Source: Acidobacteriaceae bacterium (lineage in GTDB: Bacteria > Acidobacteriota > Terriglobia > Terriglobales > Acidobacteriaceae). Taken from it: a DNA stretch of 64,000 nucleotides. The notes below the pieces were generated by a model that searched no databases, was not told the DNA's origin, and worked only from the letters and a program-made list of their open reading frames with translations. This document shows positions 15,722 through 60,698 of the stretch, piece after piece. The DNA lies in NCBI GenBank assembly GCA_025462735.1, contig JAOAPC010000015.1, positions 1 through 64,000 of the forward strand. The letters run 5' to 3'. Numbering within the stretch: the stretch's first letter is position 1; each line of letters opens with the position of its first letter. The position numbers were made by a program, and so were the translations under genes.

Positions 15722-18014
<2,293 letters not shown>

Positions 18015-19566: not shown

Positions 19567-19617
19567 GCAAGCGAGAGTAGCAGAGACCGTGTGGAGCTTG
19601 CCCTAAGCGAAGTCGAA

Positions 19618-19753
19618 GGGTCGGACATTCTTGTCCGACAAGGTCGCCTAAAACTTGAGCATTTGAGGAACCCCGGAATGAAGATTTTCGAGTGGGACCA
19701 CTTCTTCGCATCTGGCAAAGACCAGCAATTTGTCGGACAAGAATGTCCGACCC
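19618..19753. repeat. 24-bp inverted repeat pair, each arm itself a hairpin
   Basis: Arms 19618-19641 and 19730-19753 are exact inverted copies separated by 88 bp. Each contains a palindrome, GTCGGACA-TTCT-TGTCCGAC (19620-19639) and its complement (19732-19751). The spacing and terminal inversion resemble a small non-autonomous mobile element. Related palindromes: the hairpin at 3288-3309 and one inside moeA at 59783-59802. Confidence 0.75.
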
Positions 19754-19806
19754 ACACAGCCAATGTGCGCCAAACTTCCGATTTGTTAATAAACATCTTC
19801 GTCGAT

Positions 19807-53307: not shown

Positions 53308-54615
53308 ATGAAGCAATCTTCGCAATCTCACAGTCTTCTGATTCATGGTGGGCGTGTCATTGACCCAGCCGCTAAGGTTGACGCGCTGATGGATGTTCTT
53401 GTGCGTGACGGTCAGGTCGCGGAAGTTGCTCTACCCAATAAGATCCGCGCTGGAGCCGATGAAAAATTGGACGCACGAGGTTTGATTGTCGCTCCCGGAT
53501 TCATCGATCTGCACGTGCATCTTCGGGAGCCGGGTCAAGGATACAAAGAGACGATCGCCTCCGGGACTGCAGCAGCGGCGGCGGGAGGCTTCACCTCTGT
53601 GTGTTGCATGCCAAATACTACGCCCGTGCTCGATTCTCCAGAGTGGGTGACGTGGCTACGGCAGCCGCAGCGCGGGGCGATCGTGAATGTGTTTCCCATC
53701 GCGGCCGCCACGCAGGCGGGAAAAGGCGCGGTTCTGACCGATTTCCGCGCGCTGCAGCGCACCGGGGCGGTCGCTGTCAGTGACGATGGCAAGCCCATAC
53801 TGAGCGAAACCACCATGCGCGAAGCCATGCGCGCCTCGGCGGAGATCAATTTTCCGGTCGTCCAGCATGCGGAAGATACTCGGCTCACCCAGGGTTGCTC
53901 GATGAATGAAAGCCCAACATCGTTTCGGTTGGGATTGCGGGGGATGACTGACTTGGCTGAGGCCGCGATCGTGGATCGCGACGTTCAGCTTGCGCAGCAA
54001 TTCAATGGCGCACGCCTGCACGTGGCCCACGTATCCACCGCGGAGGCGCTGAAAGCAGTCCGCCGCGGGAAACACAACCGCGCCCGTGTGACTTGTGAAG
54101 TTACGCCCCACCACTTCACCCTGACCGACGCGGACGTTCGCGACTACGATACCAATTTCAAGATGAACCCGCCGTTGCGTTCAGCTTCGGACCGCGAGGC
54201 TATGCTGGCAGCGCTCGCCGACGGCACGGTTGACGCCATCGCCACCGACCACGCTCCCCATGCCCCGCACGAAAAAATTATTGAATTCGAGCGCGCCATG
54301 TTCGGAATTACGGGGCTCGAAACTGCGTTAGGATTGGCGATCACGGTGTTGCATCTGCGGCAAAAAATTTCTCTCGCCCGAATCGTGGAATTGTTTACTG
54401 CTGGGCCGGCGCGAGTAGTGGATCTCCGTGGTCGCGGAACGCTGATGCGCGGGAGCCATGGCGACTTGACCATTTTCGACCCGAAAAAACGCTGGACCTT
54501 CGACGCGTCGAAGTCCAAATCCAAGTCCCACAACACACCATTCGATGGATGGGCGCTTACGGGGAAGGTCGTGGCGACGGTTGTGGGTGGGAGAGTTGTT
54601 TACCGCACGGGGTAG
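53308..54615 (+). CDS. pyrC: Dihydroorotase
   Basis: 435 residues, type I (amidohydrolase-like, Bacillus-type) dihydroorotase. Zinc-binding signature HVHLREPG (GFIDLHVHLREPGQG), later histidines in VVQHAED, VAHVSTAEAL and ATDHAPHAPHEK, the family positions. It closes carbamoyl-aspartate to dihydroorotate. The gene follows pyrB after 76 bp on the same strand; the operon ends in REP-like DNA. Confidence 0.96.
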   Translation: MKQSSQSHSLLIHGGRVIDPAAKVDALMDVLVRDGQVAEVALPNKIRAGADEKLDARGLIVAPGFIDLHVHLREPGQGYKETIASGTAAAAAGGFTSVCCMPNTTPVLDSPEWVTWLRQPQRGAIVNVFPIAAATQAGKGAVLTDFRALQRTGAVAVSDDGKPILSETTMREAMRASAEINFPVVQHAEDTRLTQGCSMNESPTSFRLGLRGMTDLAEAAIVDRDVQLAQQFNGARLHVAHVSTAEALKAVRRGKHNRARVTCEVTPHHFTLTDADVRDYDTNFKMNPPLRSASDREAMLAALADGTVDAIATDHAPHAPHEKIIEFERAMFGITGLETALGLAITVLHLRQKISLARIVELFTAGPARVVDLRGRGTLMRGSHGDLTIFDPKKRWTFDASKSKSKSHNTPFDGWALTGKVVATVVGGRVVYRTG

Positions 54616-54619
54616 TGCC

Positions 54620-54928
54620 GTCCCTGGCGGGACTCGGGCTTCGGGTACCTGGTGTCCCAGCACTCACGTGCTGGGCTATTCAAATGTCGTCGCGTTGCGA
54701 CTTTGGTCAATCAACTTTTGTCGTTGATTTGCAACCCGTGGGCGCGTCACGACGTGTCCGGGCGACCGACGCAGTCGCGTAACCACGTAGTTCATTTTGG
54801 CCAAACCTGAGGGTCGGGAAAGCCTCGACGAAGTATCCAATCCACAGTCGCGCAGCGACGAAATCTAATTAGCCCAGCACGTAAGTGCTGGGAGACGTTT
54901 GAAGTCCAAGCCGAGTCCCTTCAGGGAC
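54620..54928. repeat. REP-like palindromes upstream of the RAYT gene
   Basis: Palindromes CCCAGCAC-TCAC-GTGCTGGG (54656-54675) and CCCAGCAC-GTAA-GTGCTGGG (54873-54892), plus smaller GTCCC-TGGC-GGGAC (54620-54633) and GTCCCT-TC-AGGGAC (54915-54928), and GTCGC-GCA-GCGAC (54847-54859). The same units recur downstream of the transposase. This is the layout of REP/BIME elements. Confidence 0.8.
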
Positions 54929-55010
54929 GATACTCCATAAAAGATTTCCACAGCTCCGACGACAACGCCCCTCACAGACAAATCTTTTCCAACATGCTCA
55001 ACTCGCCAAG

Positions 55011-55454
55011 ATGTCTCACGCCCATGTCGCTAATTTCGTCCACTGCGTCTTTTCAACAAAAGATCGCCGAAATTTGATCTCGTCAGAAATACCAAAGCTC
55101 TGCGCGTACCTGATTGGAATAGCTAGAAATTTGCACATCACAGTAATTGCTGTCGGCGGTATGCCGAACCACATCCATCTCCTGATCGCTACGCCGCCTG
55201 CTATGGCGCTGGCTGTTGCCGTCCAAAAGTTAAAGGCGAATTCATCGCGCTGGTTGGGAGATCAGGGATTGAGCTTTGAGTGGCAAAAGGGATATGCGGC
55301 GTTCAGCGTCAGCCCCTCCTCGGTGGAAACGGTGACGAATTACATTCGCAATCAGGAACGCCATCATCAGTCGCGAACGTTTGAAGAGGAGTTTCTCAGT
55401 TTTCTAAGGAAGGCTGGGGTTCATTTTGATGCCGACCATCTATTCGCCGCGTAG
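55011..55454 (+). mobile_element. REP-associated tyrosine transposase (RAYT, IS200-like Y1)
   Basis: 147 residues of the HUH Y1 transposase family. HUH motif is HIH (His54, His56 in MPNHIHLLI); the nucleophile is Tyr111 in TNYIRNQERHH. RAYTs are single-copy IS200/IS605 relatives that cut and move REP hairpins. It is flanked by matching palindromes at 54620-54928 and 55460-55552. Both key motifs are intact, so it may still be active. I do not see the stable IS605 end structures. Confidence 0.9.
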
Positions 55455-55459
55455 GTGTC

Positions 55460-55552
55460 GTCCCTGAAGGGACTCTGGTGGCGGGCACCAGTTTTCCCAG
55501 CACTCACGTGCTGGGAGACGTGAAACCAAGCGGGCGGAGTCCCTTCAGGGAC
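55460..55552. repeat. REP-like palindromes downstream of the RAYT gene
   Basis: GTCCCT-GA-AGGGAC (55460-55473), CCCAGCAC-TCAC-GTGCTGGG (55496-55515) and GTCCCT-TC-AGGGAC (55539-55552). The big hairpin is identical to the one at 54656-54675, and the GTCCCT/AGGGAC units enclose it, so the RAYT gene is bracketed. Confidence 0.8.
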
Positions 55553-55571
55553 GGCACTCACGCGGCAGACA

Positions 55572-59429: not shown

Positions 59430-60698
59430 TCATCTTAGCAGCACTGGGACCCACTCACCGGTCTCGATTCGTTCGCGGTCCGGGGGAATAACAACGTAGC
59501 AATTGGAACGCGCAATTGAGGCAATATCGCCCGAACCTTGCCAGCGCACCAGTTCCACCTCGCAGCGCTCAAATTCTCCGGAGAGAACAGCGGGGAGAAA
59601 ACGCTTCAACCCGATCCGAGTGCGAATTTCAGATTTTAACTTCGCATGCGTAAAAACCAGTTTGCGCGGTGGCATTCCGGCCAATGCTTCCAGCATTGGC
59701 TTGGCGAAGAGTTCGAATGTAACCATGGTGGAAACGGGGTTGCCGGGAAGGCCGAAGAAATACTTGGCAACAGAATCTGTTTCGCGGACAAGAGTGTCCG
59801 CGCCACACGGCATGCGACCAAATACCACCGGCTTTCCCGGCTGGATTTGCGCTCCGGTAAAAACAAATTCTGCTTTGAGTTCCGCGAGCACCTGTTCAAC
59901 CAGGTCATACTTCCCCATCGACACGCCGCCCGCGATAAGGAGCAAATCCGCCTCCAGACCCTCCAGCAGCAGTTCGCGCAGCCGTGCTGGCTCATCGGGT
60001 GCGATGGGCAGCAACACGGGATCGCCGCCGGCGTCCTGAATCTGGGCAGCAAGCGAGTAAGTGTTTGAGTTGCGGATCTGATTTGGACCGGGCGGCACAT
60101 CGATATCCACTATCTCATCGCCCGTGGAAAGCACTGCCACGCGCGGTTTCGCATAAGCGACCAGACGGGGACGGCCCACCGAAGCGGCGACGGCAATTTC
60201 TGCGTAGCCGATCCGAACGCCGGGTGAAAGCAGCTTGTCGCCACGTTTGGCTTCGGCGCCGGCGGCAACAATGTTCTCATTGGCGGCGACACGCCTGGTT
60301 ACCTGCACGTGGTCCCCCGCGTGCTTCGTGTGTTCTAACATCACTACCGCGTCGGCCCCATCAGGCACCGGCGCACCCGTCATAATCGAGACGCCTTGGC
60401 CCGATTGAACTGCTAAACCGGTCGGTGTTCCGCCGGCCTTGATCTCGCCAACAATTTGCAAGTCGGTCGGCAAATTCTCGAGGTCAGACGCCCTGATTGC
60501 GTACCCATCGCGAGTCGCCCGTGGGAACGGCGGGAAGTCGCGATCGGCGTGAATAGGCTCGGCAAGCACTCGCCCTTGCGCGTCCAGAACAGCTAGCAGT
60601 TCCCTGCCTCTGGGCTGCAGGTGGGAAGCATGGTCCTCGACCACCGCGCGCGCTTCCTCAAAGCTCAGAATGCTTGCTTGCTCCGGCTGGGCGGCCAT
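59430..60698 (-). CDS. moeA: Molybdopterin molybdotransferase MoeA with in-frame palindrome
   Basis: 422 residues, slightly longer than usual. MoeA inserts molybdate into adenylated molybdopterin. Motifs FPRATRDGYAI, GEIKAGGTPTG, VAVLSTGDEI, LLLIAGGVSMGKYDLVEQVL and GLPGNPVSTMVTFEL are present. Residues about 297-312 (MPCGADTLVRETDSVA), between FGR and the GLPGNP motif, have no counterpart in ordinary MoeA that I recall and are encoded by a palindromic repeat (59783-59802). The active-site regions are intact. Confidence 0.95.
   Translation of the reverse strand: MAAQPEQASILSFEEARAVVEDHASHLQPRGRELLAVLDAQGRVLAEPIHADRDFPPFPRATRDGYAIRASDLENLPTDLQIVGEIKAGGTPTGLAVQSGQGVSIMTGAPVPDGADAVVMLEHTKHAGDHVQVTRRVAANENIVAAGAEAKRGDKLLSPGVRIGYAEIAVAASVGRPRLVAYAKPRVAVLSTGDEIVDIDVPPGPNQIRNSNTYSLAAQIQDAGGDPVLLPIAPDEPARLRELLLEGLEADLLLIAGGVSMGKYDLVEQVLAELKAEFVFTGAQIQPGKPVVFGRMPCGADTLVRETDSVAKYFFGLPGNPVSTMVTFELFAKPMLEALAGMPPRKLVFTHAKLKSEIRTRIGLKRFLPAVLSGEFERCEVELVRWQGSGDIASIARSNCYVVIPPDRERIETGEWVPVLLR
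59783..59802. repeat. Palindrome in frame inside moeA
   Basis: Stem CGCGGACA/TGTCCGCG with loop AGAG on the plus strand (CTCT on the coding strand). It resembles the GTCGGACA-TTCT-TGTCCGAC elements near 19.6 kb. It encodes the extra residues of MoeA without breaking the frame. Confidence 0.65.

Follow-up and report, generated by a model that had tools for sequence, protein, structure and literature searches.

The moeA gene of an Acidobacteriaceae genome (G000) carries a 26-base palindromic repeat within its reading frame. This palindrome is very probably a REP element which was spread by a RAYT transposase, inserted in frame into a permissive loop of MoeA, and kept there, as other copies are kept in loops and linkers of other proteins. 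It belongs to a repeat family dispersed over the genome and has the anatomy of a REP, the MoeA loop that holds it turns over among relatives, and in relatives copies of the family are found close to RAYT genes.

The palindrome in moeA and its repeat family

The window, i.e. the whole stretch of DNA that was analysed, has a length of 64,000 nt. It contains the following features of relevance to the moeA element (evidence in parentheses):

59430..60698, minus strand: moeA, molybdopterin molybdotransferase, 422 aa, open frame (ORF; comparison with E. coli MoeA; NCBIfam)
59783..59808, minus strand: REP element of family A, GTGTGG leader followed by an 8-bp stem CGCGGACA/TGTCCGCG with a 4-nt loop CTCT (sequence; genome copies of the core; aligned flanks)
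59781..59807, minus strand: net insertion as best estimated, nine codons (CGADTLVRE, MoeA residues 298-306) (loop length in relatives; gap in E. coli)
19732..19757, minus strand: family A copy, one half of an inverted intergenic pair (pattern match; genome copies)
19621..19638, plus strand: family A hairpin, the other half of this pair, its 5' leader replaced by another short repeat (aligned flanks)

The NCBIfam domain model TIGR00177 matches the MoeA protein above its cut-off, and the whole-protein MoeA models stay under theirs. On the minus strand, which is the coding strand of moeA, positions 59783-59808 read GTGTGGCGCGGACACTCTTGTCCGCG, 26 bases which consist of GTGTGG and then CGCGGACA-CTCT-TGTCCGCG. 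REPs are described in PMC6006769 by GTAG or GTGG at 0-2 nt before a hairpin, by a stem of 7-20 nt, and by a loop of 2-5 nt, plus further conditions. The moeA element fits this published description: GTGG is found directly at the foot of the hairpin, and the stem of 8 bp and the loop of 4 nt are inside the respective ranges. Assignment as a CGTC-tagged REP or as a Rickettsia palindromic element was considered and rejected; there is no CGTC (or TGTC or CCTC) tag, and column counts, judged by eye, show GTGTGG conserved on one side and no conserved tag on the other.

The translated element, CGADTLVRE, stands between FGRMP and TDSVAKYFFGLPGNP. According to the alignment, E. coli MoeA has 13 residues fewer than the G000 protein at this site. 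When CGADTLVRE is removed, a 12-residue loop remains, which is the loop length found in some members of the family (L104, L129, and L192). We thus take nine residues as the best estimate of the net gain. The site had been pointed out in a sequence-only reading, which proposed about 15 extra residues (297-312); extra residues are indeed present, and their span is probably a little narrower (298-306). A single-sequence AlphaFold2 model of MoeA reached a mean pLDDT of 33.5, and no statement on the exposure of the loop rests on it. Judging from the open frames, the element is located wholly within the conserved coding frame, both in moeA and in the other genes named below.

The core sequence GGACAYTCYTGTCC has 67 copies in the 4.36-Mb genome, compared to 0 for the reversed control. 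In 53 of these, a [GA]TGTGG leader is found at the foot of the hairpin. Besides this 5' leader, the aligned copies share a 4-nt loop on a stem of about 8 bp; their likeness drops fast on the 3' side. The outer stem pairs covary, and the changes are compensatory: the second pair is T-A in 50 copies and G-C in 13 (4 being unpaired), and the third is G-C in 50 and C-G in 12. In addition to the dispersed copies there are inverted neighbours (C7:19623/19735, C11:348141/348207, C23:36446/36496, and C24:59637/59694), as is typical of REPs. The proposed resemblance between the moeA palindrome and the repeats near 19.6 kb is confirmed by the genome-wide core search, as both belong to family A. A second short repeat, like cctgccctgagcgaagtcgaaggg, is located at 19594-19618 of the window, and it is fused to some family A hairpins at the place where the leader would be.

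Of 120 genomes from the same family of bacteria, 42 contain matches to a pattern that takes in family A together with its sister family B (CGGGCGCCCYCGCCCG); the rows of the reversed control have 0. A sample of 149 genomes from the phylum includes 15 of the same family (3 with A/B matches) and 134 from other families, four of which have one or two copies each; none of the 134 is marked as belonging to the same order or class, so that the sample covers genomes more distant than the nearest neighbours of the family. The exact family A pattern occurs in at least 114 stretches from named genomes, and the 80 that were listed all have Acidobacteriota titles (Terriglobia, Acidobacteriaceae, Sulfotelmatobacter, etc.).

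The MoeA loop in relatives and in-frame copies in other genes

From the genus and the family, 115 moeA sequences were gathered, including the one from G000; one of them (L199) has no loop and was dropped. Among the remaining 114, the loop between FGR and GLPGNP has a length of 8 to 39 residues (median 14), and its sequence differs widely between genera. Some species have a short form, FGRVxxKYFFGLPGNP. The extra residues are thus not conserved among close relatives, which have palindromes of several families or none, and the distant MoeA from E. coli does not have them either. The condition named beforehand as speaking against an insertion, residues conserved in distant MoeA proteins that have no palindrome, is not what was found.

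When typed by eye, the loop contains family A in G000 and G007, family B or a B-like element in G016 and G090, and reversed B in G001 and G034. It contains B nested in a remnant of A in G004, GGCACGGCTTCAGCCGTGCC types in G055 and G092, and another palindrome in G110. In the loop of G088, a further repeat is nested inside a REP, again by eye; a repeat similar to cctgccctgagcgaagtcgaaggg is seen nested within the REP of this loop (L113). Both G007 and G004 have PCGAD at the place of the insert.

The moeA sequences were scanned with a simplified form of the published REP definition (perfect stem of at least 7). This resulted in six REPs in 5,307 nt of loop sequence versus none in the remaining 131,574 nt of these 114 genes, with p about 3e-9 if placement is random and independent; the six are not fully independent, G016 and G090 being sisters. 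Perfect hairpins of at least 7 bp are centred in loops in 14 cases and elsewhere in moeA in 42, a density ratio of 8.3. Within the loops alone, 13 were counted versus a mean of 1.4 and a maximum of 5 in 200 shuffles; one or two of the loop hairpins are not REP-like, e.g. an AT-rich one in L110.

Loop length was also related to the A/B repeats in the respective genome, for the 108 moeA sequences that have an A/B count. A loop of at least 19 residues is present in 18 of the 37 genomes that have A/B REPs, compared to 10 of the 71 that have none (Fisher p 0.0002, kinship being ignored); the Spearman coefficient, 0.26, indicates a weak correlation. The proportion with a loop of at most 9 residues is not lower among genomes with REPs (11 of 37 versus 14 of 71). 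A tree of 57 rows that was built without the loop implies that insert type changed at least 13 times, and presence or absence at least 10 times, on labels set by hand and with 28 of 54 inner branches weakly supported. Sequences with less than 330 aa, with less than 57% identity, or with a stop were left out, by which two REP-like loops (L092 and L188) were lost. The tree sisters G055 and G110 hold different palindromes.

The window contains a second conserved gene with in-frame repeats:

15837..18014, plus strand: ligA, 725 aa, with about 50 extra residues (about 237-290) (comparison with relatives)
16558..16581, minus strand: TGGAG-type REP in frame inside ligA (60 genome copies, control 0)
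16667..16690, plus strand: second TGGAG-type REP in frame inside ligA (60 genome copies, control 0)

The ligA inserts belong to a family with TGGAG and a CGGGCG hairpin (TGGAGNNNCGGGCG), which has 60 copies in the genome and 0 in the control. The LigA insert is missing in G001, G002, G005, and G012, and it is shorter in G007, with one TGGAGG REP. The claim that ligA and moeA both carry repeats in frame thus stands; a single shared family does not, as these are two REP families. Several families therefore take part.

A screen of the 67 core copies, as had been proposed, placed 14 in frame in genes at a loose setting and 10 at a strict one, the two lists having nine in common. In-frame status was taken from our own codon-score ORF caller and not from annotation. 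In the loose set, 11 have an NCBIfam match. The curated cut-off is reached for ParB (domain), DNA polymerase I (PolA), PrmC, MutS2, LeuS, and MnmE, as well as for MoeA by the domain model alone, and matches below cut-off are to a formate-dehydrogenase-like oxidoreductase, an Lhr-like helicase, a 23S rRNA methyltransferase, and PcrA. In the loose list, L008 and L059 are N-terminal and doubtful, L055 has no NCBIfam match at the threshold, and L010 is a candidate. In the named genomes, 17 of 152 family A copies are in frame, and seven of these hit five proteins that also have a copy in G000, three being in PcrA and one each in LeuS, PrmC, MnmE, and the formate-dehydrogenase-like protein. The LeuS copy among them has the peptide of G003 and probably is G003 itself.

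In other genomes, five of the hit genes carry copies in a loop or linker that is also occupied in G000, as judged from the sequence contexts. Common descent may explain most of the other same-site copies. In the formate-dehydrogenase-like gene, two genomes have copies at one loop which are opposite in orientation and frame, and these are therefore separate insertions. LeuS provides a series: A alone (G003), A plus B (G000 and G004), an inverted A pair (G007), and another palindrome (G001); no clear insert is seen by eye in G006 and G005. The leuS gene of G007 (L347) has a whole REP doublet, the inverted family A pair, in frame in its coding sequence. In alignments with proteins of solved structure, the LeuS site coincides with gaps and the PrmC site with a domain boundary. 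Altogether, a general process which tolerates protein insertions by repeats, suggested at first from moeA and ligA, finds support, with several conserved genes and several families involved.

The element is free of stop codons in all six frames, which is nothing special, since the same holds for 44% of shuffled 26-mers. Use of the frames by 27 in-frame copies is uneven (12, 6, 5, 3, 1, and 0; simulated p 0.001), and it is still uneven after likely shared insertions were merged by hand (10, 3, 4, 2, 1, and 0; p 0.002). The favoured frame reads ADKSVRAT/SDKNVRPT. The two least-used frames read ECP or SCP, and the one SCP case (L008) is N-terminal and on the loose list only. Uneven frame use is consistent with a filter at the peptide level. 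Most of a bacterial genome is coding, and the proportion of copies that fall in genes, 10-14 of 67, likewise agrees with such a filter.

RAYT transposases and the origin of the insertions

Nine of the at least 114 named family A stretches hold a match to a Y1 transposase. In L210, L227, L242, and L301, the Y1 gene is at most 250 bp from a family A copy, and all four best match one RAYT type. L227 has an exact family A copy just downstream of the RAYT and a near-copy upstream, the gene being interrupted in the contig, and the RAYT of L225 has close variants of the family A hairpin on either side. RAYT genes flanked by the same element are thus found in relatives, whereas G000 has a broken remnant only.

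A search with the L225 protein gave some match, mostly a distant one, in 98 of the 120 genomes of the family. A GT[AG]G hairpin is found within about 600 nt of the gene at 27 of 30 fetched loci (raw count). The RAYTs nearest to the query (L404 and L405-L407) have GGACA...TGTCC hairpins, and more distant ones have other hairpins; L404 is probably the gene of the query itself, i.e. the same as L225. Over L404-L433, the REP stem seems, by eye, to shift with RAYT identity (GGACA, GGGCA, CAGCCG, and CAGACG types), and these pairs of stem and RAYT are a possible data set for RAYT-REP recognition. Among 42 Y1 loci obtained with Pfam from six genomes, a similar scan detected no GT[AG]G hairpin at 27, and 8 of the 12 loci in G000 are among these. 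The association of REPs with RAYTs is therefore limited to some RAYT types.

In the 97% complete draft of G000, an intact cognate RAYT for family A was not found, and the exact family A core is absent from about 1.5 kb on either side of all 12 Pfam Y1 transposases. Two further RAYT loci were detected only when the protein of a relative was used as query. One is a remnant at C12:5228-5612 (L072, which covers C12:3600-10000; positions 1629-2013 therein). It is in two pieces that are in different frames, the last approximately 25 query residues were not found, and five family A copies are beside it. As the matching RAYT is a broken remnant, family A may no longer be mobile in this genome; the frame break might possibly be a sequencing error. 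The other locus is at C3 (L434, G000 C3:41500-44500, about 1285-1779). This RAYT is flanked by family B, and its own gene includes an in-frame family B REP, which accounts for 16 residues between HCLRESG and RIHLHA. REP insertions within RAYT genes are described for RAYT subclass 2.4 in PMC6006769. The window itself has one Y1 gene:

55038-55355, plus strand: Y1 (RAYT/IS200-like) transposase, within unit 54614-55566

In this unit, inverted palindromes (CCCAGCAC..GTGCTGGG and GTCCCT..AGGGAC) are found on both sides of the Y1 gene; it is a separate transposase-repeat unit.

We propose that a REP, a short non-autonomous hairpin spread by a RAYT (a HuH/Y1 single-strand transposase), landed in frame in the variable loop that separates FGR from GLPGNP. 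This might have happened in an ancestor within the genus, because G007 and G004 share PCGAD there. The element would have added about nine residues. As it brings no stop and the loop tolerates changes of length, the enzyme presumably works and the insertion persists. We infer that a RAYT moved the element, that the insert is neutral, and that MoeA works with it. More generally, insertion would occur at many places, harmful insertions being removed and the survivors found in permissive loops and linkers; the same filter could account for the repeated colonisation of loops in MoeA, LeuS, PrmC, MnmE, PcrA, and others.

It seems unlikely that RAYTs instead target these loops actively, by a preferred target sequence, rather than by wide insertion with later loss. 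The same loops are struck repeatedly, and, according to PMC8266576, one RAYT cuts at CC (and still at CA) once its guide has been altered to GTGG; CC precedes 33 of 53 leaders in G000. In other genomes, however, CC stands before just 27 of 148 leaders (background about 7.5%), and copies in opposite orientation occur at one site. As a target dinucleotide, CC was rejected, since it held in G000 and hardly in the other genomes.

The palindrome might have been kept for a role in the moeA mRNA or DNA, such as ribosome pausing, transcript stability, or binding of a host protein, which we regard as improbable. Such roles have been proposed for REPs between genes, and the moeA RNA around the element has a computed stability of -32.7 kcal/mol (z -3.9), not equalled in any of 200 shuffles. 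A REP folds well at any location, however, relatives have short hairpin-free loops or different palindromes in either orientation, and copies are scattered over unrelated genes. It is even more doubtful that the loop itself has a function in MoeA of this clade, e.g. contact to a partner, with the palindrome being incidental. The loop adjoins the conserved GLPGNP motif, and some longer loops are common to close species (e.g. L094/L096), but the wide range of lengths and the divergence between genera argue against a function, as does the fact that the DNA at this place is a multicopy repeat. A chance palindrome in a GC-rich loop can practically be dismissed: a loose pattern (up to 3 mismatches) has 5 matches in the window with 4.5 expected, which is chance level, so that chance was tested genome-wide, where 67 exact-core copies versus none in the control, the conserved 5' leader, and the enrichment in loops contradict it.

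REP insertion followed by a filter thus is our preferred explanation for the moeA element. A far wider interpretation is offered tentatively, as one that may well prove incorrect: in this family of Acidobacteriota, RAYT-borne REPs might cause a continuing natural insertion mutagenesis of the proteome, with permissive loops (MoeA, LeuS, PrmC, MnmE, PcrA, LigA, and others) being recolonised by different families, nested and in both orientations, so that length and sequence of the loops would evolve largely by decay of mobile DNA. Related species show one and the same loop in filled, empty, nested, and decayed states, which is a natural data set of insertions tolerated by conserved enzymes. It connects indels of protein loops with one particular mobile element and the transposase belonging to it, a link open to an in vitro test. 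Annotators should be aware that odd short peptides in such genomes (ADKSVRAT, VARTLLSA, CGADTLVR) can be translated REPs.

Comparison with known systems

The closest known system is that of the GTAG/GTGG REPs and their RAYT (TnpA-REP). As described in the passages of PMC6006769 compared here, it agrees in the tetranucleotide at the foot, the sizes of stem and loop, the copy number, the inverted pairs, and the RAYT which adjoins the element in relatives. Families A and B differ from it in sequence family and host. The GTGG tetranucleotide is not new, as PMC3733652 reports it in most GTAG-20 elements of Opitutus terrae.

Repeats linked to Y1 transposases are known from the same phylum, namely the Koribacter TIR repeats (PMC3733652) and the Solibacter class 3 Y1 structures, for which PMC6006769 gives a CnGA foot and about 600 copies. 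These have another foot and structure, and insertion into host protein genes is not described in the passages compared. Rickettsia palindromic elements resemble the moeA element in being palindromic repeats in frame in conserved proteins (PMC2229807; PMC3733652). They differ by a length of 105-146 bp or a CGTC tag, the moeA element having 26 nt and a GTGG tag.

A literature search found no paper on intragenic REPs of Acidobacteriota or on REPs in MoeA, as judged from titles and the starts of abstracts and with subscription journals mostly outside its scope. The terms moeA and molybd are absent from the main text of PMC3733652. In that paper, Di Nocera et al. (2013) report in-frame GTAG/CGTC REPs in genes for DNA repair, tRNA, and other functions, among them DNA polymerase I, UvrD, DNA ligase, and tRNA synthetases, and suggest that they are located in loops or linkers. 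The acidobacterial copies are likewise in frame, and the gene classes overlap. Intragenic in-frame REPs (PMC3733652) and the Rickettsia elements (PMC2229807) are thus already known from the passages compared. The present analysis adds GTGG families from Acidobacteriota and the RAYT type that goes with them, as well as the finding that different REP families have used the same loops repeatedly. In the passages compared, PMC3733652 gives one same-site case, recB in two Xanthomonas species with REPs at about the same site, whereas here MoeA and several other loops have been struck repeatedly, and by different families.
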